Of a stretch of 64,000 bases of DNA, positions 450-62,828 are shown piece after piece. Position 1 is the first letter of the stretch, and every line of letters begins with the position of its first letter. This DNA is from Roseimicrobium sp. ORNL1 (GTDB lineage Bacteria; Verrucomicrobiota; Verrucomicrobiia; Verrucomicrobiales; Verrucomicrobiaceae): NCBI RefSeq assembly GCF_011044495.1, contig NZ_CP049143.1:6448001-6512000 (forward strand), in the 5' to 3' direction. Both the position numbers and the translations under genes were made by a program. The notes beneath the pieces were generated by a model. It was not told where the DNA came from and did not search any database. It was given only the letters and a program-made list of their open reading frames with translations.

Positions 450-1232
450 TCACAGCGCTCTCGCATACGCCCCACCATCCACCAACAACGCCTCACCGGT
501 GATGTAGCTTCCTGCTTCACTCGCGAGCAGCAGGGCCGGACCAGCGAGTTCCCTCGGCTGCCCCCAGCGTTGCAGGGCCGTGCGGGTGGCGAAGGCATCC
601 TTCTCCTTGTCATTCAAAAGGCTCATCGGCAGATCGGTGAGGAAAGGTCCGGGGCAGAGGCAGTTCACGGTGATGTTGTACGTGCCCAGGTCCAGTGCGC
701 TCGCTTTGGCCATGCCGATGAGGCCCGCCTTGCAGGCGGAATAGACATTGCGCTTCTCCTTCGAGCCCACGCCCAATACGGAGGACACATGGATGATGCG
801 ACCCCACTGGCGCGACTTCATCCCCGGCACCAGCGCCCGCGTGAGCGCCATGCAACTCGTGAGGTCCAGTTCCACAATACGGTCCCAGGCTTCATCCGTG
901 ATTTCATCGATGGCCTGCGGCTGGTTGCTGCCCGCGTTGTTCACCAGGATGTCCACCTTGCCCAGGCGCTTCTCCGCCTCGGCCGCCAGATTCTTCACCT
1001 GCGCGCGGTCCACCATGTCCGCCACCATCCACTCTACCTTCACCGAAAGCCCCTCACCAATCTCCGCCGCCGCCTTCTTCAACTCCTCCTCACTCCGGCT
1101 GGAGATGAACACATCCGCCCCCGCCTCCGCAAACCCCCGCGCCATCGCCTTGCCCAGTCCCTTGCTGCCGCCCGTCACCAATGCCGACTTGCCCGTGAGA
1201 TCGAAGAGAGGATGGATATGTGCCTGTGCCAT
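450..1232 (-). CDS. SDR-family NAD(P)-dependent oxidoreductase
   Basis: A 260-aa classical short-chain dehydrogenase/reductase. The Rossmann nucleotide motif TGGSKGLG is at residues 20-27, NNAG follows in the middle, and the catalytic Ser (VSSVLG) and YSACK (YxxxK) follow. The C-terminus has the usual TGEALLVDGG. Length is normal for the FabG-like class. Start: an upstream in-frame ATG at 1268 would add a proline-rich MHPPPPP leader, so the internal ATG at 1232 (MAQAHIHPLFDL) is preferred. It probably reduces or oxidises a carbonyl/alcohol in the cytoplasm; the substrate cannot be read from sequence. It stands alone, divergent from the nuclease-ATPase gene at 1404. Confidence 0.9.
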   Translation of the reverse strand: MAQAHIHPLFDLTGKSALVTGGSKGLGKAMARGFAEAGADVFISSRSEEELKKAAAEIGEGLSVKVEWMVADMVDRAQVKNLAAEAEKRLGKVDILVNNAGSNQPQAIDEITDEAWDRIVELDLTSCMALTRALVPGMKSRQWGRIIHVSSVLGVGSKEKRNVYSACKAGLIGMAKASALDLGTYNITVNCLCPGPFLTDLPMSLLNDKEKDAFATRTALQRWGQPRELAGPALLLASEAGSYITGEALLVDGGAYARAL

Positions 1233-1403
1233 GGCGGGATTGTAGCGTGGGGGTGGAGGGGGATGCAAGTAGCCTAATCGAACATGAATGCACTCACATC
1301 GACCAAGGACGTCTTCGCGTTTTACACTTGCCTTCCCGAATTCAGTTAAATACGTTCATTTAGTCCAAGGAAAAAATATCACTCTAGCGACGACTCAACG
1401 TAT

Positions 1404-3923
1404 ATGAATGCGGATCCCATTGATGCTCGCGCGGCCAAGCTTGCTGAAATTATAGAATGGTACACAGCGCACTCGGCCTCTGTGGTCAGCGAGTCTGACA
1501 CCAGGCTCAAGATGATTGACCGAATCCTTCGCGAGGCACTTGGGTGGGAAATTGAGAATACGCAAACTGAGGAAGACGCAGGCGAAGGACGACTGGACTA
1601 TCGCTATACCGTGGGCTGCGGCACGAGGGCAGTAGTGGAAGCCAAACGCACTACAGTAAACTTTGAAATACCATCTCATCGTTCTGGTCAAGCTTTCTTA
1701 CTCAATGGCCCAGTTTTTGGAGTGAATGCACGCTACGCCATTAAGCAAGTAGTGACGTACTGTGCATTCAAAAGCGCCGAACTGGCATGCTGCACCAATG
1801 GCAATCAATGGATCATTTTTCGCGGAAATCGCCTTGGAGACGGCCGCGACGTACTCGAAGGAAAAGGATATATTTTCGCAAGCCTTCCCGATGTGCAAGG
1901 TGCGTTTAGCCTCTTTCATGACCTTTTGTCTCGGGAGTCGTTGACGTCCCTCCGCTTTCGAGGAGTTCTACAACAAGCCGAAGGCGTAAAGCTTCGTAAT
2001 ATCGGCTTCGCCCGCTCGATCCGCACCCAGGACACGAGAAGACTATTGCCCCGTGATGCTTTTGCCATCGACTTCGAGATGGTCATGTCCTCATTCTTTC
2101 AGCGCTTAAAAGGAGAGACCGACGCTGACATGATTGGGGCCTGCTTTGTGGTTTCCGATGAATCTGAACGAGCTGAATCACGCATTACCCGAATCGCAGA
2201 TGACCTCGTTCACAAAGTGCGTGAACTCAATACAGATACGGGTCGTGAGTTGGCAAACTTAATCAGCCAAGTACAGCAACTTCACAAAAACCGATTCGTC
2301 CTACTTGTAGGCACCAAAGGCGCCGGGAAATCAACGTTTATTGACCGCTTCTTTGCACATGTTTTGCCGAAGAACATCCTGGACGGGCTTGTTCTAATTC
2401 GCGCCGACCTCCTACATTGCGACGGCAACATAGCCCATCTCCATAATTGGCTCAACTCGACCCTGCTCTCAGCATGCGAAAACTCTGTTTACGGCACAGA
2501 GGGCCCCGATTGGAATGAGACGATAGGAGCAATGTTCTGGAAGGAGTACAAGAGGTGGAAGACCACGACGAAGAAGGTTCTTTATGAACAAAATAAGCCG
2601 AAGTTTGACATCCAATTTGGAGACTATGTTGAGGAGTGCCGAAAGCTTGACCCTCATGACTACATAAAGCGCCTACTCGGGAATGTCGTTAGAAGCAGAA
2701 AAAAGGTGCCTTGCCTCATTCTCGACAATACCGATCACCACAGCATCGAGTTCCAAGAGGCAGTTTTTCAGTACGCCAGATCGCTATATGAGGCAGAACT
2801 ATGCATGGTCATCATGCCCATTACTGATCGGACAAGCTGGCAGCTTTCTAAACAAGGCGTTTTGCAATCATTCGAGAGCGAGGTTCTTCATCTTCCCGTT
2901 CCAGAAGCATATAGAGTAGTAGAACGACGCATCCACTATCTTTCGGAGAAGATATCCGAAGCCAAATCCAAACAAAATGCCAGCTACTTCATTGGCCGAA
3001 ACATCAGACTCGACGTCAATGACATCGAGAAATTCGCTCATGCACTAAACCGTATCTTCGTCGAATCCCAGGCCACTTCAGAATGGATCGGCGCCCTCGT
3101 AAACTATGATGTTCGGCGTCTACTTGAGCTTGTCAAAAACATAGTCAGCTCACCACATTTGACCATTGATCGATTGTTCGCCGCACACACATTGAACGAC
3201 GCCGACGTGATCGCACCTTGGCGAATCAAACAGGCGATTATCAAGGGCGGCTATGACATATATCCTTCTGGAGAACATCAGTTTGTTCAAAATTGCTTTC
3301 AACTTATTGAGGACCCACCAACTTCACCTCTGCTCTGCCTACGAATTCTTCAATTCTTGCGCGATGTTCCTCCCGCTAATGAAGGGGAAGTTGCGGCATT
3401 CGTCCCAATCTCGGAAGTCTATGAGTATTTCGCAGCTATGGGATTTGAGAGCCGCTCAATAACCCAATCAATCGAACGCATGCTGGCTGCAGGGCTGGTT
3501 CTTAACTACGATCCATCTGTTTCCACTGTAGAAAAACTAACAAAGATCGAAATCTCTCCATCTGGGCGAATACACTTACTATGGGGAACAACAGACGAAG
3601 ACTATATTAAAACCATGGCTCAGGTGACTGCCATTCGTGACGAAAACACATTTCAATTGATTTATGGATACGCGAGAAACATGGCCCAAAACTGGGCTAA
3701 CGTCCTAGTTTCCTTCGTTGATTATTTGCAGGCCGAGGATCGCAATTGGTGTAATATACCAACGCACAAACATTATTCAGGGCAGGGAAAACTTCTGAAT
3801 CGCCTCAATCGAGTTGCTGAAGACGCCAAACGTACTGCAGACGCTAGAGGCGGCTTTACACGATTCAGTAGCAAGTATACGGAACCTCGGAATCACGGTA
3901 GTCCAGCCACAAAGAGCGAGTGA
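1404..3923 (+). CDS. HsdR-N-like nuclease fused to P-loop ATPase (candidate defence protein)
   Basis: This is an 839-aa protein. Residues about 10-130 look like the N-terminal nuclease domain of type I restriction R subunits: an LGW segment (46-48), then D65 and E79-A-K81 as a PD-(D/E)xK signature. Residues about 280-600 are a P-loop ATPase with Walker A GTKGAGKS (303-310), a Walker B-like LILD ending at D441, a sensor-1-like ITDR (473-476) and an NYDVRRLLEL stretch (567-576) like sensor 2 of ORC/STAND ATPases. Residues about 640-730 resemble a winged helix. No helicase motifs, methylase or specificity subunit is present, so this is not an ordinary type I enzyme. ATG at 1404 has no clear ribosome site. 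The gene is visibly AT-richer than its neighbours, which suggests transfer. It is followed after 3 bases by a DUF3883 gene. ATP-dependent DNA cleavage against phage is inferred, not shown. Confidence 0.75.
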   Translation: MNADPIDARAAKLAEIIEWYTAHSASVVSESDTRLKMIDRILREALGWEIENTQTEEDAGEGRLDYRYTVGCGTRAVVEAKRTTVNFEIPSHRSGQAFLLNGPVFGVNARYAIKQVVTYCAFKSAELACCTNGNQWIIFRGNRLGDGRDVLEGKGYIFASLPDVQGAFSLFHDLLSRESLTSLRFRGVLQQAEGVKLRNIGFARSIRTQDTRRLLPRDAFAIDFEMVMSSFFQRLKGETDADMIGACFVVSDESERAESRITRIADDLVHKVRELNTDTGRELANLISQVQQLHKNRFVLLVGTKGAGKSTFIDRFFAHVLPKNILDGLVLIRADLLHCDGNIAHLHNWLNSTLLSACENSVYGTEGPDWNETIGAMFWKEYKRWKTTTKKVLYEQNKPKFDIQFGDYVEECRKLDPHDYIKRLLGNVVRSRKKVPCLILDNTDHHSIEFQEAVFQYARSLYEAELCMVIMPITDRTSWQLSKQGVLQSFESEVLHLPVPEAYRVVERRIHYLSEKISEAKSKQNASYFIGRNIRLDVNDIEKFAHALNRIFVESQATSEWIGALVNYDVRRLLELVKNIVSSPHLTIDRLFAAHTLNDADVIAPWRIKQAIIKGGYDIYPSGEHQFVQNCFQLIEDPPTSPLLCLRILQFLRDVPPANEGEVAAFVPISEVYEYFAAMGFESRSITQSIERMLAAGLVLNYDPSVSTVEKLTKIEISPSGRIHLLWGTTDEDYIKTMAQVTAIRDENTFQLIYGYARNMAQNWANVLVSFVDYLQAEDRNWCNIPTHKHYSGQGKLLNRLNRVAEDAKRTADARGGFTRFSSKYTEPRNHGSPATKSE

Positions 3924-3926
3924 AGT

Positions 3927-4775
3927 ATGGAAGGAGATTGGAATGCTCAAGAGGTAGAAGCCGCTGTGGCCGACTACTTTGAAATGCTCGCGAAAGAGCT
4001 ACGATCCGAGCCATTTAACAAAGCCGAGCATAATCGCAATCTTCGAAAGGTAATTGCACGGAGGACCGCTGGTTCAATTGAAAGAAAGCATCAGAACATA
4101 AGCGCCGTCTTGATATTGCTCGGTTTTCCGTACATCAAGGGATACAAGCCATTCAAAAATTTTCAACACTTGCTCGGCAGCGTAGTGGAAGCCCGATTGA
4201 ATCAGGCAGTACATCTCAAAGAGCTCGCCAGTTCAGTGGTCACACAGACTACGCCCCCCATTCCTCCAATTGGAGACTTTAGTGACTTATGCGTGTCGCC
4301 ACCAGTTCGCGACGAATTGCAGTCGAGGATTTATGAAACTCGTCAATTTATGCCTCAAGGTACCCACCTGAACTACTTAGAGCTTGAGGCATCAAATCGT
4401 TCGCTTGGAGCAGCTGGTGAAGAGTTTGTGATTCAACTTGAACATCGTCGTCTCTGGATCGCCGGAAAGCACAGCCTAGCCGAAAGAATCGAGCATGTTT
4501 CAAAGACGAAGGGTGACGGCTTGGGGTACGATATTCTCTCCTTTGAGGAGTCTGGAAAAGAGCGACTTATCGAAGTAAAAACGACTAGTTTCGGCCAAAT
4601 GACACCCTTTTTCCTCTCTCGAAACGAACTGCTCGCATCCAAAGCTCTCTCGGATCTTTACCAGCTTTACAGAGTCTTTTCATTTCGGAAGGATCCGAGA
4701 CTCTACACACTGCGAGGTTCACTTCAGGACTGTTGTGAACTCGAGCCGGTAAACTACTCGGCATTCCCACAGTAA
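3927..4775 (+). CDS. DUF3883 (NO VEIN C-terminal-type) nuclease-like protein, partner of the ATPase
   Basis: A 282-aa protein in two parts. Residues 1-95 form a helical domain (VADYFEML, NKAEHNR, IERKHQNISAVL, GYKP) of the type found ahead of HNH or DUF3883 domains in restriction-like proteins. Residues about 155-250 match DUF3883, with GEEFV (E165), GYDILSF (D202) and IEVKTT (E216, K218); together these give a PD-(D/E)xK-like constellation. The ATG is 3 bases after the stop of the nuclease-ATPase gene, so the two are almost certainly co-translated and work together. Composition is also AT-rich. Nuclease activity and a defence role are inferences from the family. The gene ends 77 bp from the convergent nuoF stop. 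Confidence 0.78.
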   Translation: MEGDWNAQEVEAAVADYFEMLAKELRSEPFNKAEHNRNLRKVIARRTAGSIERKHQNISAVLILLGFPYIKGYKPFKNFQHLLGSVVEARLNQAVHLKELASSVVTQTTPPIPPIGDFSDLCVSPPVRDELQSRIYETRQFMPQGTHLNYLELEASNRSLGAAGEEFVIQLEHRRLWIAGKHSLAERIEHVSKTKGDGLGYDILSFEESGKERLIEVKTTSFGQMTPFFLSRNELLASKALSDLYQLYRVFSFRKDPRLYTLRGSLQDCCELEPVNYSAFPQ

Positions 4776-4852
4776 AGGGCGGTCGCTTCGTATCTTGAAG
4801 CGAGTTCATTGAGCCAGTAGTTAGAGTCGGACCACTCTTAACCCTAGCATTT

Positions 4853-6256
4853 TTACACCTCCAACCCCGCAGCCGCCAAGACGGTCTCGGGATTGACCAC
4901 CTTGCCTTCCAGCTCTTCGCGGGTGCCGGACTTGAGTTCGTCGCGGAACTTCTTCACGAAGCTTTGGGTGGGCCAGGAGCAGGCTTCGCCGAAGGCGCAG
5001 ATGGTCTTGCCTTCGATGTTGTTGGCGACGCGCTCGAGTTCATCCACGTCCGAGGGGCTGGCGGTGCCGGCCACGATGCGGTCGCTGATTTTCTTCATCC
5101 ACAGGGAACCCTCGCGGCAGGGGGTGCACTGGCCGCAGGATTCGTGGGCGTAGAAGGCGTTCAGGTTGTTGATGACCCAGGACATGGAGCGGGAGTCATC
5201 CATGATGATGACACCGCCGGAGCCGGCCATGGAGCCGCAAGCGGCCATGGTGTCGAAGTCCATGGGGATGTCCATGATGGTGAGCTCGCGGCCGTCCTTG
5301 AGCTTGAACTTCTCATCGGCGCGCAACACCTTCGCGGAGGAGCCGCCGGGGATGATGGCCTTGAGCTTGCGTCCGGGCTTGAGGCCGCCGCAGAGGTCAT
5401 TGATGACCTCGCCCATGGTGACCTTGCCCACCTGCACTTCGAAGTAGCCGGGCTTCTGCACGTCGCCGCTCACGCAGAGGATGCGGGTGCCGGTGTTGTT
5501 CGGCGTGCCGAGCTTGGCGTACTCTTCGCCGCCCATCTCGATGATGTGCTTCACGTGGCAGAGGGACTCCACGTTGTTCACAATCGTGGGGCACATGTAG
5601 AGGCCGAGGGCCGCGGGGAAATAGGGCGGCTTGATGCGCGGGTAGGGGCGCTTGCCTTCGAGGGACTCGATGAGGCCGGTCTCCTCCCCGCAGATGTACG
5701 CGCCCGCGCCGCGGTGCACGTAGATCTCAAGGTCGTAACCCTTGCCGAGAATGTTCTTGCCCAGGAAGCCCTTGGCGCGCGCTTCATCGAGCGCCTTCTC
5801 CAAGATGATGGCGGCTTCCGGGAACTCTTCGCGGATGTAGATGTAGGCGAGGCTCGCCTTCACCGCGAAGCAGGAGATCACCATGCCCTCCACGAGCTGG
5901 TGGGGGTCCTGGTGCATGATGTAGCGGTCCTTGAAGGTGCCGGGCTCGGACTCGTCCGCGTTGCAGATGAGGTAGACGGGCTTGGTATTCGTGGGCGGGA
6001 TGAAGCCCCACTTCACGCCGGTGGGGAAACCCGCGCCGCCACGACCGCGCAGGCCGGCCTTCTTCACGTCGTCAATGATGGCCTGGCGTTCCATGCCCAT
6101 GGCCTTCTTGAGCTGCTCGTACCCGCCATGCTTCATGTAGCACTCGATGGACGGATCATAGCCCTCGCGGTCCACATTCTTGAAGATGAGGCGGTGCTCA
6201 CGGGCGTGAGGCTGCTTGCCCTGCTTGTATTGGATCTTGGTCGCGGCGGAGGCCAT
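4853..6256 (-). CDS. nuoF: NADH-quinone oxidoreductase subunit F
   Basis: A 467-aa NADH-oxidising, FMN- and 4Fe-4S-binding subunit of respiratory complex I. Visible motifs are the glycine-rich GRGGAGFPTGVKW (NADH/FMN), GAGAYICGEETGL, and the cluster ligands SCGQCTPCREG followed about 40 residues later by TICAFGEACSW. The ATG at 6256 (MASAATKI) is preferred over the one at 6292, which would add a short proline-rich leader. No other nuo gene lies next to it: nuoE is absent upstream, and the downstream neighbour is the defence-like cassette. The gene is therefore separated from the usual nuo operon. A CRP-type palindrome lies 45 bp upstream of the start. Confidence 0.96.
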   Translation of the reverse strand: MASAATKIQYKQGKQPHAREHRLIFKNVDREGYDPSIECYMKHGGYEQLKKAMGMERQAIIDDVKKAGLRGRGGAGFPTGVKWGFIPPTNTKPVYLICNADESEPGTFKDRYIMHQDPHQLVEGMVISCFAVKASLAYIYIREEFPEAAIILEKALDEARAKGFLGKNILGKGYDLEIYVHRGAGAYICGEETGLIESLEGKRPYPRIKPPYFPAALGLYMCPTIVNNVESLCHVKHIIEMGGEEYAKLGTPNNTGTRILCVSGDVQKPGYFEVQVGKVTMGEVINDLCGGLKPGRKLKAIIPGGSSAKVLRADEKFKLKDGRELTIMDIPMDFDTMAACGSMAGSGGVIIMDDSRSMSWVINNLNAFYAHESCGQCTPCREGSLWMKKISDRIVAGTASPSDVDELERVANNIEGKTICAFGEACSWPTQSFVKKFRDELKSGTREELEGKVVNPETVLAAAGLEV

Positions 6257-6300
6257 GAGGCGGGAAGATGCTACCGGGGTGGCGGGGGGCAAGGGCGATT

Positions 6301-16251: not shown

Positions 16252-17499
16252 TCACCCCAACTCCCCCAGAGCCTTCTTCAGGGACGCGAATTCCATGTCC
16301 TGCTTCTGCAGCACAATTTCGCGTGCCTTCTGCGCCTTTGCCTTCGCGGCAGCAGGGTCCTTCGCGATGGCCAGCACGGTGGCGGCGATGCGGGCGACTT
16401 CGTCTTCGTTGTCCATGGTGAAGAGCCACTCGTTCAGGCCGATGTCGCGCCACATGAAGCCCTTATTGGTCTGCTCGTCCCAACGGCACACGACGGCGGG
16501 GATACCGCTGGCGATGCACATGATGGGGCTGTGCATTTCATTGCCGAAGAGGCCGGCGCTGCGCACGAAGGTGCTGAGGGCTTCATCGGTGAGCCAGTAC
16601 TTGTCACGCCACACGACCTTCTTCTTCACGTCCTCGGGAAGGGGATCGTAGAGCATCTCCTTGCCCAGCGTGATCTGGGTTTGGTCTTCACAGGTGATGA
16701 GCACCTTCATGTCCGTCTCACGCGTGATGGCGATGATGGCGGCACGGTGCGGCGCGTGGTCGTGCTCCTTCTTCTCCTGGTTGCGCTTGTCCTTCACTTC
16801 ATCATACGGGCGGCCCTTCTTCACGGTCCACTGAGGTGTCCAGCGATAGCGGGGAATGCAGCAGAGGAATTTTCCCTCCTCCAGGTTATGCTCCTTCATG
16901 AAGGCGAGTGCGGCTTCGTCATTGCGCAGCTTCACCACGCCAAATGCGGTATCGGGTCCGAAGGCGGCGCCGGGCACGTTGCAGCCCTGCTGTTTGGCTT
17001 TCTCGAAGGAAACGCCGTCGCGGAAGTACACGAACTTCGCCTTGTTCAGCGTCTCGATGAGCGCGGGATCATCCGAGGTCAGGGAGATGCCCATGACACC
17101 AAAGGGCTTGCCGGTTTCCTTCACCCAACGCGCCACGTCCTTCCACGCGACGAAACCCGAGCCGGAACCGTGCAGCATGAAGTCGCACTTCTGGATGGCT
17201 TCCTTGATGGCGTCCTGCCCTTCCAGCACCTTCACCTTGGGGAAGTGCTTGGCGAAGAGCGCGTCCGCGCCGTTCTCCATGTTGCTCGTCCAGAAGTCGA
17301 CATCGGCATCGATGCCGTACTTCTCAAAGAGCTCCATCATGCCCAGGTAGTGGGCGATGTCGCCGATGTTGATGCTCTGCCAGCCATTTCGCAGGAGGAT
17401 GCGCGGCTTCCGCTGGCCCTGGGCCACAGCGGGAATGGAGGCGAGCGTGCTGGCCAGTGCAGCGAAGGCGGAGGATTCGAGGAAGTGGCGGCGGTTCAT
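16252..17499 (-). CDS. Exported polysaccharide pyruvyl-transferase-family protein
   Basis: A 415-aa protein. It starts MNRRHFLESSAFAALASTLA, a twin-arginine-like signal, so it is probably exported. The body matches the polysaccharide pyruvyl transferase family: NIGDIAHYLGMMEL, HGSGSGFVAWKD, GVMGISLTSDDP, FVYFRDGVSFEKA, FGPDTAFG, and near the end LFGNEMHSPIMCIASGIP. Cytoplasmic family members transfer pyruvyl groups to exopolysaccharide, so a Tat-exported form is unusual and its reaction is uncertain. Two fragments of this gene lie downstream, at 15545-15600 and 15112-15154, which shows that it was duplicated and broken. Confidence 0.85.
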   Translation of the reverse strand: MNRRHFLESSAFAALASTLASIPAVAQGQRKPRILLRNGWQSINIGDIAHYLGMMELFEKYGIDADVDFWTSNMENGADALFAKHFPKVKVLEGQDAIKEAIQKCDFMLHGSGSGFVAWKDVARWVKETGKPFGVMGISLTSDDPALIETLNKAKFVYFRDGVSFEKAKQQGCNVPGAAFGPDTAFGVVKLRNDEAALAFMKEHNLEEGKFLCCIPRYRWTPQWTVKKGRPYDEVKDKRNQEKKEHDHAPHRAAIIAITRETDMKVLITCEDQTQITLGKEMLYDPLPEDVKKKVVWRDKYWLTDEALSTFVRSAGLFGNEMHSPIMCIASGIPAVVCRWDEQTNKGFMWRDIGLNEWLFTMDNEDEVARIAATVLAIAKDPAAAKAKAQKAREIVLQKQDMEFASLKKALGELG

Positions 17500-56199: not shown

Positions 56200-57474
56200 A
56201 TGCCTCAAGCTTCAGCCATTTTGCACCCGGATTCGGACAAGGCTCACTACCTTGCCCAAGGGGTATTGTGCGTGCTGGCGGCCTCCACGGTGGCCAGCGC
56301 GGCCTGGGCATTCTGGCACGGAGTAGGCCAGCCCGGGAATGCCGTTGCCCTCGCGCACCAGGGGACCGGGCAGCCAATTGCCACTGCTCCGGCCGTTCCG
56401 ATCACCGAGGTGCCCACGCCCCCTGGATCGATCCCGTACCCGGCAGGTCCCTCCACCATCCTGCCGTCCAATCCCAATCCGACCCTGCTCGCGAACCCGG
56501 CTCCGCCAGCCAATCTCTCTGCACCCATCACTCCCGCGGTGCCTTTCGTGCCGCTGGAGCGCCCCCCGGTTCCCACCGCCACGACGCTCGCCAGCCTGCC
56601 ACCCCCGCCGGTCACGAACAACATGCCGCCTCTCAGCGGCGTGCCCGTGACGATGGCGTCAGGCAACTACTCTCCGCTGGGTGAATCTGCCCCACCGTCC
56701 CGCCTTCCCGCTCTGCCTCCGGGTAAGGAACTGAAGAACCCGCAGGCCCGGGAATCGGTGCACGCCGCCCGCGAAGCCCGCAAGCTGCAGGACATGGAAG
56801 CGGCCCTCAATGAACTGCGCACGGCAGATCTCCGGGAACCGAACCACCCCGAGATTCTTGGGGAGATGGCCCTGACCTACGAATTGATGGGCCTGAACTC
56901 CAAGGCCCAGGGGTTCTGGAAACAGCTCTCCACCCTTGGTGAGGCCGAAGCCGGTGGATACTTCCTGCTGGCCAAGTCCAAGCTGGACGCCGCTGAATCC
57001 AGCCCAGCCCCGGGTGCTGCCGCCTCGAGCCCCGTGAGCCTTGGCACCTGCCAGGTGATTCAGGATCCCACAGTGCAAAAGGGAGAGCGCGTCACGGTGC
57101 GCGTGCCCATCATCTCCTCGCCCGGCGCGACCATCAACGCCGCGGAAATGGACATTCATGTGTTGCTCTACGAATCCGTCAACAATGGCGAACGCATCGA
57201 GCAGGTGCGGGCCGATCAACCCAGGACAAGCTGGGTGTCCGAGCCCGTGGACTGGCAGGACACACGTGAGGAACTGGTGGACGTAGTGTACGACCTTCCG
57301 CCTCCCACCGCCGAGCAAATCCGCGATCTCGGCAAGCGCAAATTTCACGGTTATATAGTGAAACTGTTCTACCAAAACAAACTGGTGGGTGAACAGGTGC
57401 AGCCTGAGTCATTGCGGGAAACGGCCCGGCGCAACTCGCCCGGAGGCCTGGACAACTCCCTCTTCCCCAAGTGA
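56200..57474 (+). CDS. Membrane-anchored proline-rich protein with TPR-like region
   Basis: 424 aa from the ATG at 56200 (MPQASAILHPDSDKAHYLA). There is one N-terminal membrane helix (GVLCVLAASTVASAAWAFW), then about 130 residues of Pro/Thr/Ala linker. TPR-like helices follow (AREARKLQDMEAALNELRTA; EILGEMALTYELMGLNSKA), then a C-terminal beta domain (VTVRVPIISSPGATINAAEM, IVKLFYQNKLVGEQV). It is probably a periplasmic or surface scaffold. Its stop overlaps the GTG start of the next gene by 4 bases, so the two proteins are made together. Family not recognised. Confidence 0.78.
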   Translation: MPQASAILHPDSDKAHYLAQGVLCVLAASTVASAAWAFWHGVGQPGNAVALAHQGTGQPIATAPAVPITEVPTPPGSIPYPAGPSTILPSNPNPTLLANPAPPANLSAPITPAVPFVPLERPPVPTATTLASLPPPPVTNNMPPLSGVPVTMASGNYSPLGESAPPSRLPALPPGKELKNPQARESVHAAREARKLQDMEAALNELRTADLREPNHPEILGEMALTYELMGLNSKAQGFWKQLSTLGEAEAGGYFLLAKSKLDAAESSPAPGAAASSPVSLGTCQVIQDPTVQKGERVTVRVPIISSPGATINAAEMDIHVLLYESVNNGERIEQVRADQPRTSWVSEPVDWQDTREELVDVVYDLPPPTAEQIRDLGKRKFHGYIVKLFYQNKLVGEQVQPESLRETARRNSPGGLDNSLFPK

Positions 57475-59579
57475 ACGACATTTCCGGCTCCTCACTCGTG
57501 GTGCTGTATGTGGACCCGAACCCGGAGGTCCGCACCCAGCGCGTCGCCGCTCTCACGCGCCAGGGCGTGACCGTGCTGGAGGCGGACGATGCCGAGGCCG
57601 GCGTGATCGTGGCCCAGACCCTGAAACGCCTCGATGTCCTGGTGAGCGAGGGATACCTCAGGGAGGGCGGTTACACCGGCTTTGATCTGCGTGACGCGGT
57701 ACGGCAGAAGTTTCCAGAGCTGCGCACGATCTTCACCAGCCGGTATGAGATGGCCGGCTACGAGCAATACTTTGACGGATGCCCGCTCATGCTGGAGCCG
57801 GTGAATGAGTCCGAACTCATCAGCGAAATCGTGGGCGTTTGTGAAGTGGTGCAGGCGCCGTCGGCAGTTCCATCAGTCCCCTCGGCACCGGTCGCGGTGG
57901 CCGTGGCAGTAGCGGCCACCGCTGACGATTCCTCCGTGCAGAAGGCCATCCTGGTGGACGAGGATGAGGAGAACAAACCTCACTCCCTGCCACCCAATAC
58001 CGCGCTCGGGAACTACACCATCACCGAAGATCTCTACGCGGAACGTGATTCGGAGACCTATCTGGCCATCCAGCGGGGAGTGAATCGCAAGGTGGTGCTG
58101 GTGCTGCTGCGCCCTGACCAGACAGACCAGCCCGGAGCGCTCGATGCCTTCCACGAACGCGAGCGCGTGAAAGCCTCCATTGCCCATCCACGAATCGCCC
58201 CGCTCTATGAGGCGCTTGCAGTGGATGGACGCCATTTTTACACGCGTGAATTGCCCAACGGACGCTCCATCGAGGAACTCCAGGAATCGGGGACAAAGTT
58301 CAAGGAAAAGCAGCTTGTCGAAATCATTGCCAATGTTGCGGAAGCGATGGGGCACGCCACCGGACGTGGCCACCATTACCGTATGCTCAGTCCTCGCGAC
58401 GTGTTCGTGGATGACGAAGGCCAGGCCAGCATCGTGAACGTCTTCCGTCCTCCTGGCAGCAAGCCGCGCGATTTCCAGGCGGACACAAAGAAGCTCCTGA
58501 TCATGCTGCGAGGGCTGGCGGATGGCCCGCGCGCCCGTCACCAGATTGATGATCTTGTGCGCGAATCCCACACGTGGGAAGGCCTGACCAATCGCGCCAA
58601 GGAATTGCAGGAAGAATTTCATGAGCGCAGCCTCCTGAAAAGGGCAGACACCAAGGAGGCTCATGACATCAAGGCCGCGCATGAGCGGACCAGCGTGCCC
58701 ATCTGGGTGCTTGGCCTCTCTGCGGTAGTCGTGGTGGGCCTGGTGACCGGCATCGTGCTGCGCAACCGGAACACACCACCGCCGCCGCCCAAGCCGCTGC
58801 AGTCGGAGATGGTGGCCATTCCCGCCGGGGAGTTTGTGTACCAGAAGGATGCGCAGAAGCGCGTCAACAACGCCTTCTGGATCGACAAGTACGAAGTCAC
58901 CATTGGCCAGTACGCGGAGTTCCTGGATGCCCTCGCCAAGGATCCTGCGAAAGCCAAACAGTACGACCATCCCGACCAACCCGCGGCGAAGAAGGATCAC
59001 CTGCCCGACAAGTGGACCGACTACCTCGGCGCGGCGCGCACGGCGGGCTACTTCAACAACCAGCCGGTCAACATCAACTGCCCCATCACGAACGTCGACT
59101 GGTGGGATGCCTGGGCCTACGCGAAGTGGCGCGGTCACCGGCTGCCCACCGAGGAGGAATGGGAACGCGCCGGACGCGGCAGGGATGGCCGTCTTCATCC
59201 CTGGGGAAATGACGCCAAGCCAAAGGCGGCCAATCTGGGAAGCGACTACGACCCCAAGGGGAAAGGCGGCGCCACGGATGGCTACAACTTCTGGGCTCCC
59301 GAAGACAAGATGCCTGAGGACGTGAGCGAAGATGGTGTGATCGGCCTTGCCGGGAATGTGGAGGAGTGGACCGCTACGCAGGCAAATCACCCCGACTACC
59401 CTGACCTCCCGGTACCGGTGGTGCGCGGGGGGAATTTCGCCCTGAACCGGCCTGAGAATGAACTGACCCTCCGAATCTTTGCGGATTCCCCGGAAAATGC
59501 TACCATCGCCCGCGGATTCCGCACGGTGAGCGATACGCCACCCCCTGCCGCTGCCACTGCTGCCGGGGCCGCGCCCTGA
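57471..59579 (+). CDS. Receiver-like / pseudokinase / SUMF1 (FGE-sulfatase) fusion protein
   Basis: 702 aa starting at GTG 57471, which overlaps the previous stop. Residues 7-125 fold like a response-regulator receiver, but the phosphate-accepting Asp region reads LVSEGYLREGG, so it is degenerate. Residues about 180-400 resemble a Ser/Thr kinase: a HYRMLSPRDVFV segment (302-312) stands where HRDLKPxN belongs and IVNVF replaces DFG, so catalysis is unlikely. A membrane helix spans 409-430 (WVLGLSAVVVVGLVTGIVL). Residues 445-690 are a SUMF1/FGE-type domain (MVAIPAGEF, VTIGQYAEFL, RLPTEEEWERAGRG, VVRGGNF), outside the membrane. The FGE redox cysteines are absent. A sensor or adaptor role is inferred. 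Confidence 0.88.
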   Translation: MNDISGSSLVVLYVDPNPEVRTQRVAALTRQGVTVLEADDAEAGVIVAQTLKRLDVLVSEGYLREGGYTGFDLRDAVRQKFPELRTIFTSRYEMAGYEQYFDGCPLMLEPVNESELISEIVGVCEVVQAPSAVPSVPSAPVAVAVAVAATADDSSVQKAILVDEDEENKPHSLPPNTALGNYTITEDLYAERDSETYLAIQRGVNRKVVLVLLRPDQTDQPGALDAFHERERVKASIAHPRIAPLYEALAVDGRHFYTRELPNGRSIEELQESGTKFKEKQLVEIIANVAEAMGHATGRGHHYRMLSPRDVFVDDEGQASIVNVFRPPGSKPRDFQADTKKLLIMLRGLADGPRARHQIDDLVRESHTWEGLTNRAKELQEEFHERSLLKRADTKEAHDIKAAHERTSVPIWVLGLSAVVVVGLVTGIVLRNRNTPPPPPKPLQSEMVAIPAGEFVYQKDAQKRVNNAFWIDKYEVTIGQYAEFLDALAKDPAKAKQYDHPDQPAAKKDHLPDKWTDYLGAARTAGYFNNQPVNINCPITNVDWWDAWAYAKWRGHRLPTEEEWERAGRGRDGRLHPWGNDAKPKAANLGSDYDPKGKGGATDGYNFWAPEDKMPEDVSEDGVIGLAGNVEEWTATQANHPDYPDLPVPVVRGGNFALNRPENELTLRIFADSPENATIARGFRTVSDTPPPAAATAAGAAP

Positions 59580-60549: not shown

Positions 60550-60635
60550 CAAAAGAAGTGAGCGTGCATTCGCTCAAAGTCTCCTTTGTCAACGTGTAAA
60601 AGGTCGCTAGGGTGACGGCTCCCCGCCGCCCGCCG

Positions 60636-62828
60636 ATGTCCACGACCCCTGCCGTCCCCAAACTGAAAGACAGTCCCATTCTTGGCAGGGAGCATCTGCC
60701 GTCTGATGGTGTACTCCTCATCCCCAGCCAGCTTGGCTATCATGATGTGCTGCACCTGGAGAAAATTTTCCACGGGCGCACCCTCGTGTACCTCACCGTT
60801 CAGGGTGCCGCGTTGGATCCCCGGGTGAAGAGCCACCTGCACGGCGAGAGCGTGCATGCCCTGGAAATCGTACCGGACTCCACGGACACCAGCGCGCTGC
60901 GCAAGGAAATCCAGGATGAGGTGAAGAAGGGCAGCGTGGTGATCTACGTGCCCCAGCTGGCGGTCACCCAGACCGCGCCCCTCTCCTCCGTGCCCGGCAC
61001 GCGTCTTGAATTTCTGATGGAGGCCCATGTGCCGGTGCTGCCGCTGTACGTGCTCCACTCCAACGATATCCTGCTGGCGATTGAATCCCGCAAATCCGAA
61101 GGGGAAGCCGTATATGCCTTTGGCCCGGTGTTGCGCGATGCCAATGTCACGGTCGCGAAGTATCAGGAATCCCTGATGGCGCTCAATGAGGAGGCCTTCT
61201 CACAGAATCCCACGCTGGACATGAGCCTGGCGTATGCCCTTCTCAAGGGCCTGAAAAAGCACGGCTCGCTCAAGCTGATCGACGGCAAGGATGAGAAGGA
61301 AAGCTCCACTCTCACCTACGACAAGGTCCTCGCCGCAGCCATCGCGCTGAGCAAGCACGTGAAGTCGGTGACGCAGAAGCCGCGCGTAGGCGTCATCCTG
61401 CCTCCCGGCTCCGGCGCCATGATCGCGAATCTCGCGGTGCTCTTCGCCGGCAAGGTGCCGGTGAACATCAACTTCAGCGCGGGTCGCCCGGCGGTGGAGA
61501 GCGCCATCAAGCAGGCGGATCTGGATCACTACCTCACGGCGGATCTCTTTGTCCGGAAGCTGCAGACCTTCCCCTGGCCTCCGAATCGCCAGCTCACGTT
61601 CATCGAACGCACGCTGCCGACCTTGAAGGGCAAGATGACCACCTGGTTCCTCCTTTCCAAGGTGCTTCCCGCGAGCGTGCTGGCATCCCTGTTGGGCATT
61701 TCCACCAAAGGTGGTGACAAGGAAGCGCTGCTGCTCTTCACCAGCGGAAGCAGTGGTGAGCCCAAGGGCGTGGCTCTCACGCACCGCAACCTCATGGCGA
61801 ATGTCATGCAGTTCGGCTCGCGTCTCGCGCTCAAGCACGATGACCAGATCCTCGGCTGCCTGCCTCTCTTCCACAGCTTCGGTTGCACCGTTACGCTGTG
61901 GTATCCCATCATCCAGGGAATTGGACTGGTGACCTACCCGACACCGCTTGAGACGAAGAAGCTCGCGGAACTCATCGGCAAGCACAAGATCTCGCTCTTC
62001 ATCTCCACGCCGACCTTCCTGCGAGGCTACCTCAAGGGCGTGAATCCCGAGCTCTTCACGTCACTCAAGCTCGTGGTCACTGGAGCGGAAAAGCTGCCCA
62101 AGGCCGTCGCGGAAGCGTTCGAAGCCCGCTTTGGCAAAAAGGTCTTCGAAGGTTATGGCCTGACGGAAACGTCGCCGGTAAGCAATGTGAACCTGCCGGA
62201 TCCCGAGACTGCCGGCGCGGTGTCCGGCTCCCTCGTGATGCCCAGCTATCGCTTCGGTTCCGTGGGCCAGCTCATTCCGGGACTCGCGGTGAAGCTGACG
62301 GATCCGGAGACCGATGAACCGGTAAGCATCCACGAAAGTGGCATGGTCTGGTTCAAGGGACCGAACGTGTTCGAGGGTTACCTCAAGAACCCGAAGAAGA
62401 CCGAAGAAGTCATCAAGGACGGCTGGTTCCGCACCGGCGACATCGGCCGCATGGACAAGGATGGATTCCTCTACATCGAAGGCCGCCTCAGCCGCTTCTC
62501 CAAGGTGGGTGGCGAAATGGTGCCGCACGAGACCGTGGAAGATGCGCTGGTGAAAGCACTCGGTTTGGAAACCGAAGCCGTCCGCCGCATTGCCGTTGTG
62601 GGTGTGCCGGATGTGGAAAAGGGCGAAGCGCTCGTGCTGCTCACCACCATCCCCGGTGGCAGCGTGCAGCAGGAGATTCTCGACCTGCGCTACAAGCTCC
62701 TCGACCGTGGCATGGCTCCGCTGTGGATTCCCAAGAAGATGGTCCGCGTGCCGGAGATCCCCGTACTGCCCAGCGGCAAGCTGGACGTGAAGGGCTGCGA
62801 GAAACTGGCGAAGACGGCGGGCTGGTGA
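60636..62828 (+). CDS. Acyl-adenylating enzyme with degenerate acyltransferase-like N-terminus (Aas-like)
   Basis: 730 aa from the ATG at 60636 (MSTTPAVPKLKDSPILG). Residues 20-205 follow the layout of a PlsC/Aas acyltransferase domain, but the HxxxxD active site is not recognisable (SQLGYHDVLHLEK occupies the place). Residues about 230-730 are an AMP-forming synthetase: LLLFTSGSSGEPKGVALTH (P-loop), YGLTETSPVSN, WFRTGDIGRMDKDGFLYI and the late lysine region PSGKLDVKG. It probably activates fatty acids for lipid remodelling, as in Aas (2-acylglycerophosphoethanolamine acyltransferase/acyl-ACP synthetase), perhaps with only the ligase half active. Confidence 0.9.
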   Translation: MSTTPAVPKLKDSPILGREHLPSDGVLLIPSQLGYHDVLHLEKIFHGRTLVYLTVQGAALDPRVKSHLHGESVHALEIVPDSTDTSALRKEIQDEVKKGSVVIYVPQLAVTQTAPLSSVPGTRLEFLMEAHVPVLPLYVLHSNDILLAIESRKSEGEAVYAFGPVLRDANVTVAKYQESLMALNEEAFSQNPTLDMSLAYALLKGLKKHGSLKLIDGKDEKESSTLTYDKVLAAAIALSKHVKSVTQKPRVGVILPPGSGAMIANLAVLFAGKVPVNINFSAGRPAVESAIKQADLDHYLTADLFVRKLQTFPWPPNRQLTFIERTLPTLKGKMTTWFLLSKVLPASVLASLLGISTKGGDKEALLLFTSGSSGEPKGVALTHRNLMANVMQFGSRLALKHDDQILGCLPLFHSFGCTVTLWYPIIQGIGLVTYPTPLETKKLAELIGKHKISLFISTPTFLRGYLKGVNPELFTSLKLVVTGAEKLPKAVAEAFEARFGKKVFEGYGLTETSPVSNVNLPDPETAGAVSGSLVMPSYRFGSVGQLIPGLAVKLTDPETDEPVSIHESGMVWFKGPNVFEGYLKNPKKTEEVIKDGWFRTGDIGRMDKDGFLYIEGRLSRFSKVGGEMVPHETVEDALVKALGLETEAVRRIAVVGVPDVEKGEALVLLTTIPGGSVQQEILDLRYKLLDRGMAPLWIPKKMVRVPEIPVLPSGKLDVKGCEKLAKTAGW

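Follow-up and report, generated by a model that had tools for sequence, protein, structure and literature searches.

AAA+ ATPases of the ORC/Cdc6 clade that are coupled to restriction endonucleases (REases) have been described (PMC10853773, PMC12839542), and the combination is a recognised anti-invader theme (PMC10853773). The BREX-related Type-1 BR systems bring together DUF499, a DUF1156 methylase and an SNF2 helicase–nuclease (PMC12839542). The DUF3883 (NOV_C) domain has been reported to be a novel kind of REase domain (PMC3710099), and PDC-S36 is one of the phage defence candidates of PADLOC (PMC11514479). Here, we analysed a stretch of 64,000 nucleotides from Roseimicrobium sp. ORNL1 (NZ_CP049143.1, positions 6,448,001 to 6,512,000; hereafter the window), in which an AT-rich insert carries two genes. 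Gene 1 encodes a protein (P0001) that, by sequence family and structure model, joins an HsdR-type PD-(D/E)XK nuclease to an AAA+ ATPase of the ORC/Cdc6/STAND-like kind and to a winged-helix region, and gene 2 encodes a PDC-S36 family protein (P0002). The reading that we favour, at a probability of roughly 0.6, is that this insert forms a small hotspot for defence genes, in which two independent single-gene nucleases came to adjoin, gene 1 being a stand-alone ATP-switched nuclease and gene 2 a Type IV-like enzyme. Gene 2 is already catalogued, and anti-invader systems that combine an ORC/Cdc6 ATPase with an REase are an established theme; for the gene 1 family, no full-length model was found in the copies of PADLOC 2.0.0, Pfam and NCBIfam that were searched.

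The insert lies between an SDR gene and nuoF (Table 1), and its two genes, separated by 3 bases on the plus strand, differ sharply in composition from their neighbours. Their GC contents are 48.4% (gene 1) and 47.8% (gene 2) versus 63.0% for the SDR gene and 63.3% for nuoF, and the GC content at third codon positions (GC3) is 0.50 and 0.48 versus 0.81 and 0.90, respectively. By this foreign composition, both genes look horizontally acquired; the borders of the insert show no convincing repeats, and its coding strand yielded no sigma-70-like promoter. The initial annotation, whose two open reading frames 3 bp apart were confirmed, had taken the genes to form one compact module, that is, one operon encoding a single anti-phage machine in which an ATP-driven sensor acts with two nucleases. 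The 3-base spacing on one strand and the shared GC and GC3 values speak for such a machine, as does a locus from the same bacterial family (L201), in which an SNF2 helicase gene ending in a NOV_C/DUF3883 domain is immediately followed by a distant gene 1 relative. The two domain types thus do occur together in defence operons, the one sign that they may cooperate in other settings. The surveys of relatives point the other way. In 65 gene 1 loci, taken from genomes and viral contigs, BLASTP detected no gene 2 homologue, in a survey that covered flanks of up to 10 kb, with several contigs ending early, and in which very distant DUF3883 domains would be missed; the five nearest full-length gene 1 relatives (41–44% identity) are among these loci. 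In a survey of the phylum (388 genomes), 10 genomes had a gene 1 match and 13 a gene 2 match, the genome studied here (G000) being the only one with both. Likewise, among 68 genomes of the family, a gene 2 homologue was accompanied by a substantial gene 1 match only in G000, the gene 1 matches in two other genomes with gene 2 (G391 and G218) being short and weak (31 and 80 model positions).

The site itself behaves as a hotspot. In the sister species (G388), in which the SDR gene and nuoF are 94% and 98% identical to those of the window, the same site carries a gene 2 homologue (51–53% identity) that ends approximately 100 bases from nuoF, and it carries no gene 1; in its place are found a 223-residue gene without an assigned family and a gene for a Vsr-like endonuclease (Pfam Vsr, E-value 1e-14; PADLOC Vsr, 9e-13). 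The identity of 52% in gene 2 versus 98% in nuoF reflects either very fast change or replacement, and the tree does not tell which. The 65 loci, the two surveys and the sister species together indicate that the two genes are not co-conserved; the proposed system is therefore not supported as a conserved unit, and a conserved pair was rejected by both synteny and co-occurrence. As gene 2 is moreover catalogued as a single-gene candidate, a single machine built from both proteins appears very unlikely. Some gene 1 relatives reside in restriction–modification (R-M) or BR operons, as described below.

Relatives of gene 1 were collected from plasmids (30 records), genomes (58 loci) and viral contigs (7 loci); the last required alignment queries, single-sequence scans of viral contigs having found nothing. 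They occur in Pseudomonadota, Cyanobacteria, Planctomycetota, Acidobacteriota, Bacteroidota, Omnitrophota and other groups, and sit on chromosomes, plasmids and proviral contigs. D...ExK together with QxxxY is the hallmark of nucleases in the HsdR/RecB-like group. In an alignment of 50 members of the gene 1 family, residues E30, D65, E79, A80, K81, Q115 and Y119 are identical throughout, as are G303, G306, G308 and K309 of the Walker A motif (GTKGAGKS), D441 of the Walker B motif (LILD), and N442, D444 and D475, while R571 is kept in 49 of the 50. With this degree of conservation, the motifs are not a product of chance, and the nuclease residues D65 and E79-A-K81 and both Walker motifs, which had been read from the single sequence, are intact and conserved. 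The Pfam HSDR_N profile matches 17 of the 50 relatives (best E-value 1.4e-6) and was not detected in P0001 itself; AAA_16 or AAA_22 is found in nearly all members, and a cold-shock domain in 20, the protein of the window having no cold-shock extension. Alone, P0001 gives only weak P-loop matches in Pfam, PADLOC and NCBIfam. Sub-threshold matches to RsgA, TsaE, ABC, mad8 and nSTAND3 are confined to the Walker region and were not used; the match to mad8 covers only 32 residues around the P-loop (E-value 0.005), and membership of MADS, which calls for mad8 over its full length along with the remaining mad genes, was rejected.

The AlphaFold model of the gene 1 protein has a mean predicted local distance difference test (pLDDT) score of 85.4. 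In Foldseek searches, the top PDB matches to this model are ORC/Cdc6 subunits with winged helices (7jgr_D, E-value 7.2e-8), the Orc4/Cdc6 chains ranging from 7e-8 to 1e-4, and Apaf-1 and plant NLR structures appear lower in the list. The TM-scores to ORC are low (0.24 by query and 0.40 by target), for which the extra domains of the query are partly responsible. In the viral structure library, an HsdR N-terminal-domain protein aligns over 210 columns at 5.4 Å (E-value 1.7e-3, probability 1.00), and this is the tightest superposition among the 50 matches listed. The sequence family and the model matches together give a predicted architecture of nuclease, ORC/STAND-like AAA+ core and winged helix, in agreement with the ATPase and winged-helix C-terminus that had been proposed. 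The NYDVRRL segment, which contains R571, can be read as a lid/sensor-2 helix, as supported by the ORC/Cdc6 fold match.

This architecture resembles Type I HsdR in its N-terminal nuclease of the HSDR_N type, with D...ExK and QxxxY, but it differs in having an ORC/STAND-like ATPase instead of an SF2 translocase, and in the absence of HsdM and HsdS. Pfam revealed no helicase domain in P0001, and the neighbouring genes examined include neither hsdM nor hsdS, so the protein does not qualify as a Type I HsdR subunit; a methylase, a specificity subunit and an SF2 helicase are likewise missing among the examined genes adjoining the pair, as the initial annotation had noted. With the ORC/Cdc6-clade ATPase–REase systems, gene 1 shares the ORC/Cdc6/STAND-type ATPase, the winged helix and the association with an REase; in contrast, its REase is of the HsdR type and N-terminal in the same chain, its locus has no HerA/FtsK, PglZ, DUF499 or methylase, and many of its relatives add cold-shock domains. 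A working scheme would be that invading nucleic acid is contacted through the winged-helix region and, in many relatives, also through the cold-shock domains, that ATP binding by the ORC/Cdc6/STAND-type core drives assembly, and that assembly clusters the HsdR-type nuclease domains, leading to cleavage of the DNA and presumably to protection from phage.

The neighbours of gene 1 relatives include restriction genes in a number of genomes. One relative (44% identity) overlaps the hsdR gene of a Type I hsdRM operon by 4 bases (L023), and hsdR and hsdM lie within 7 kb of another (L013). Among more distant relatives (20–26% identity), one adjoins a methylase and a restriction nuclease (L020), one lies beside a Vsr-like gene (L204), and one beside a DNA methylase-like gene that was read by eye from the sequence (L206). 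In L201, a distant relative resides within an operon of an SNF2 helicase–NOV_C protein, a DUF1156 methylase and a HEPN–DUF499 ATPase, the extra HsdR_N–AAA+ gene being placed between the helicase and the methylase (L201:2752-15105). A second genome of the same family (L202) shows a like arrangement, its neighbours assigned by similarity to those of L201, whose families were identified. By its gene content, this operon fits the Type-1 BR system (PMC12839542), and both genomes carry a distant gene 1 relative within it. The window pair does not belong to that system, as none of the core BR genes stands beside it and the relatives in L201 and L202 are only 22% identical to gene 1.

These contexts also bear on a serious rival, in which gene 1 is a suicide (abortive-infection) effector that indiscriminately cleaves the DNA of the cell, or RNA in the members with cold-shock domains. 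The STAND/ORC-like switch architecture, with Apaf-1 and plant NLRs among the Foldseek matches, the lack of a modification gene in the window and the cold-shock domains in 20 of the 50 relatives would all suit such an effector; its nuclease, however, belongs to the HsdR restriction type, and R-M and BR operons, whose presumed mode of action is restriction, contain some of the relatives. We therefore regard suicide as an unlikely, albeit not negligible, mode of action, and prefer a stand-alone ATP-switched nuclease that would restrict invading DNA.

Gene 2 matches the PADLOC PDC-S36 profile over its full length (E-value 2.5e-103; residues 2–280 against profile positions 4–278 of 280), shows no difference from that family, and merely happens to follow gene 1 in the window. 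This places gene 2 in an already named single-gene candidate family, which counts against the initial annotation; the family of gene 1 has no PADLOC or NCBIfam model. The gene 2 homologues of the sister species, of a plasmid and of proviral contigs also match the PDC-S36 profile over their full length; in the literature searched, no paper naming PDC-S36 and no test of it were found. As had been proposed, the protein is a DUF3883 protein with a nuclease-like EVK site: NOV_C/DUF3883 is found in its C-terminal half by Pfam (E-value 6.5e-22), D202, E216 and K218 are invariant in an alignment of 25 sequences, and the domain is common to gene 2, PD-T4-1 and TmtA proteins. Foldseek nuclease matches are weak and comprise Hjc/RecU-type nucleases and SPARDA (best E-value 0.04); a match to Peptidase_M16_C (E-value 9e-4) fell below the cut-off and was ignored. 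In another protein (L096), the N-terminal part of PDC-S36 (9e-23) is fused to a C-terminal Type IV methyl-directed enzyme of PADLOC (mREase_IV, HNH; 1.2e-33), which suggests that the N-terminal module is a targeting domain paired with varying nucleases. The fusion links the N-terminal module of gene 2 to the McrA-like Type IV (HNH) enzymes; the catalytic domain of gene 2 itself is DUF3883 rather than HNH. Gene 2 is probably a Type IV-like (McrA-style) restriction enzyme, in which the N-terminal module would select the DNA and the PD-(D/E)XK domain of the DUF3883 type would cut it.

Several observations weigh against reading the insert as a hotspot of two independent defence nucleases. The spacing and equal GC contents of the two genes fit co-transcription. 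The structure model of gene 2 is mediocre (pLDDT 74.9), and the evidence for its nuclease fold comes mainly from the profile and the literature. In a PADLOC comparison of genes near to and far from gene 1 relatives, 143 families were matched in 120 near genes versus 42 in 125 distant genes, figures that count families rather than genes and are no more than a weak, suggestive indication of defence genes nearby. Finally, many gene 1 loci have no obvious defence neighbour, which, along with the ORC/Cdc6 similarity and the plasmid relatives next to replication genes (L015 and L021), would be expected if gene 1 served ORC-like DNA maintenance, repair or a mobile-element function. Its patchy distribution, foreign GC content and invariant HsdR-type active site, and the repeated placement of its relatives in or beside restriction genes, make a role outside defence quite unlikely. 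For each of the two genes, defence has the best support of the roles considered.

Within the bacterial family, gene 2 is more regularly accompanied by Vsr, with Vsr-like genes near its homologues in three of six genomes (G388, G415 and G218, the last at 73 bases and divergent). Vsr-like genes also lie near genes with the gene 2 N-terminal module at four loci (L172:5463-5999, minus strand; L101:9065-9511, minus; L199:2763-3293, plus; L095:1953-2321). In two genomes, the gene 2 homologue has as its head-to-head neighbour a gene of approximately 220 residues without a Pfam match (L172:5996-6667, minus; L199:5443-6075, plus; 44% mutual identity), which may be a partner of gene 2 that the window lacks. 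A gene 2 homologue with 45% identity (L022:4704-5840) is present in more than 1,200 plasmid records from enterobacterial and Acinetobacter plasmids; in the one record examined it lies beside aac(3)-IId, and a PDC-S36 gene appears to travel with a resistance region. In approximately 35 of 41 IMG/VR contigs (L107–L147), the gene 2 homologue shares its locus with a large serine recombinase, and it is often at the edge of the contig (provirus), by eye near tRNA-like 3' ends, where it may be cargo or a marker of the insertion site. In L107, a gene for a UvrD-helicase/PD-(D/E)XK fusion (L107:166-3507) is followed 6 bases downstream by the gene 2 homologue.

Elsewhere in the window, the genes appear to be ordinary chromosome, and include those for a polysaccharide pyruvyl transferase (16252-17499), an FGE-sulfatase domain protein (57471-59579) and an AMP-binding enzyme (60612-62828).

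Table 1. Features of the insert and its flanks, in window coordinates.
Feature	Position	Strand	Basis
AT-rich insert, SDR gene to nuoF	1278..4850	.	GC content and identity of flanking genes
SDR gene flanking the insert	450-1232	-	
nuoF flanking the insert	4853-6292	-	
Gene 1 (P0001), 839 aa	1404..3923	+	Open reading frame and translation, 50-member family, family Pfam, AlphaFold, Foldseek
HsdR_N-like PD-(D/E)XK nuclease domain, gene 1 residues ~1-200	1404..2003	+	Invariant residues, HSDR_N in relatives, viral HsdR-N structure match
Gene 1 catalytic codons	D65 1596-1598; E79 1638-1640; K81 1644-1646; Q115xxxY119 1746-1760	+	
Walker A GTKGAGKS, gene 1 residues 303-310	2310..2333	+	G303, G306, G308, K309 invariant
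Walker B LILD, gene 1 residues 438-441, then invariant N442 and D444	2715..2726	+	
Sensor-2-like NYDVRRL, gene 1 residues 567-573	3102..3122	+	R571 kept in 49/50
Winged-helix-like region, gene 1 residues ~640-740 (placement inferred)	3321..3623	+	H-H-H-E-E pattern of the model, ORC/Cdc6 matches
Gene 2 (P0002), PDC-S36 family protein, 282 aa	3927..4775	+	Open reading frame, PADLOC
N-terminal helical module, gene 2 residues ~1-105, proposed DNA-targeting domain	3927..4241	+	Same module before HNH nuclease in L096
NOV_C/DUF3883 domain, gene 2 residues 164-261	4416..4709	+	Pfam
Gene 2 nuclease-like residues	D202 4530-4532; E216 4572-4574; K218 4578-4580	+	Invariant in 25

That two genes lie close together is not enough to establish a defence pair; here, the survey of relatives and the comparison with the sister species argued against one. 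More tentatively, at somewhat less than even odds, gene 1 may found a widespread, uncatalogued family of single-protein defences with optional cold-shock domains, whose members would act alone or plug into R-M or BREX-related operons as an extra ATP-controlled effector. If active, the gene 1 relatives would amount to a compact defence of the restriction type that uses a replication-initiator-like ATPase where classical systems have a helicase motor and a methylase.

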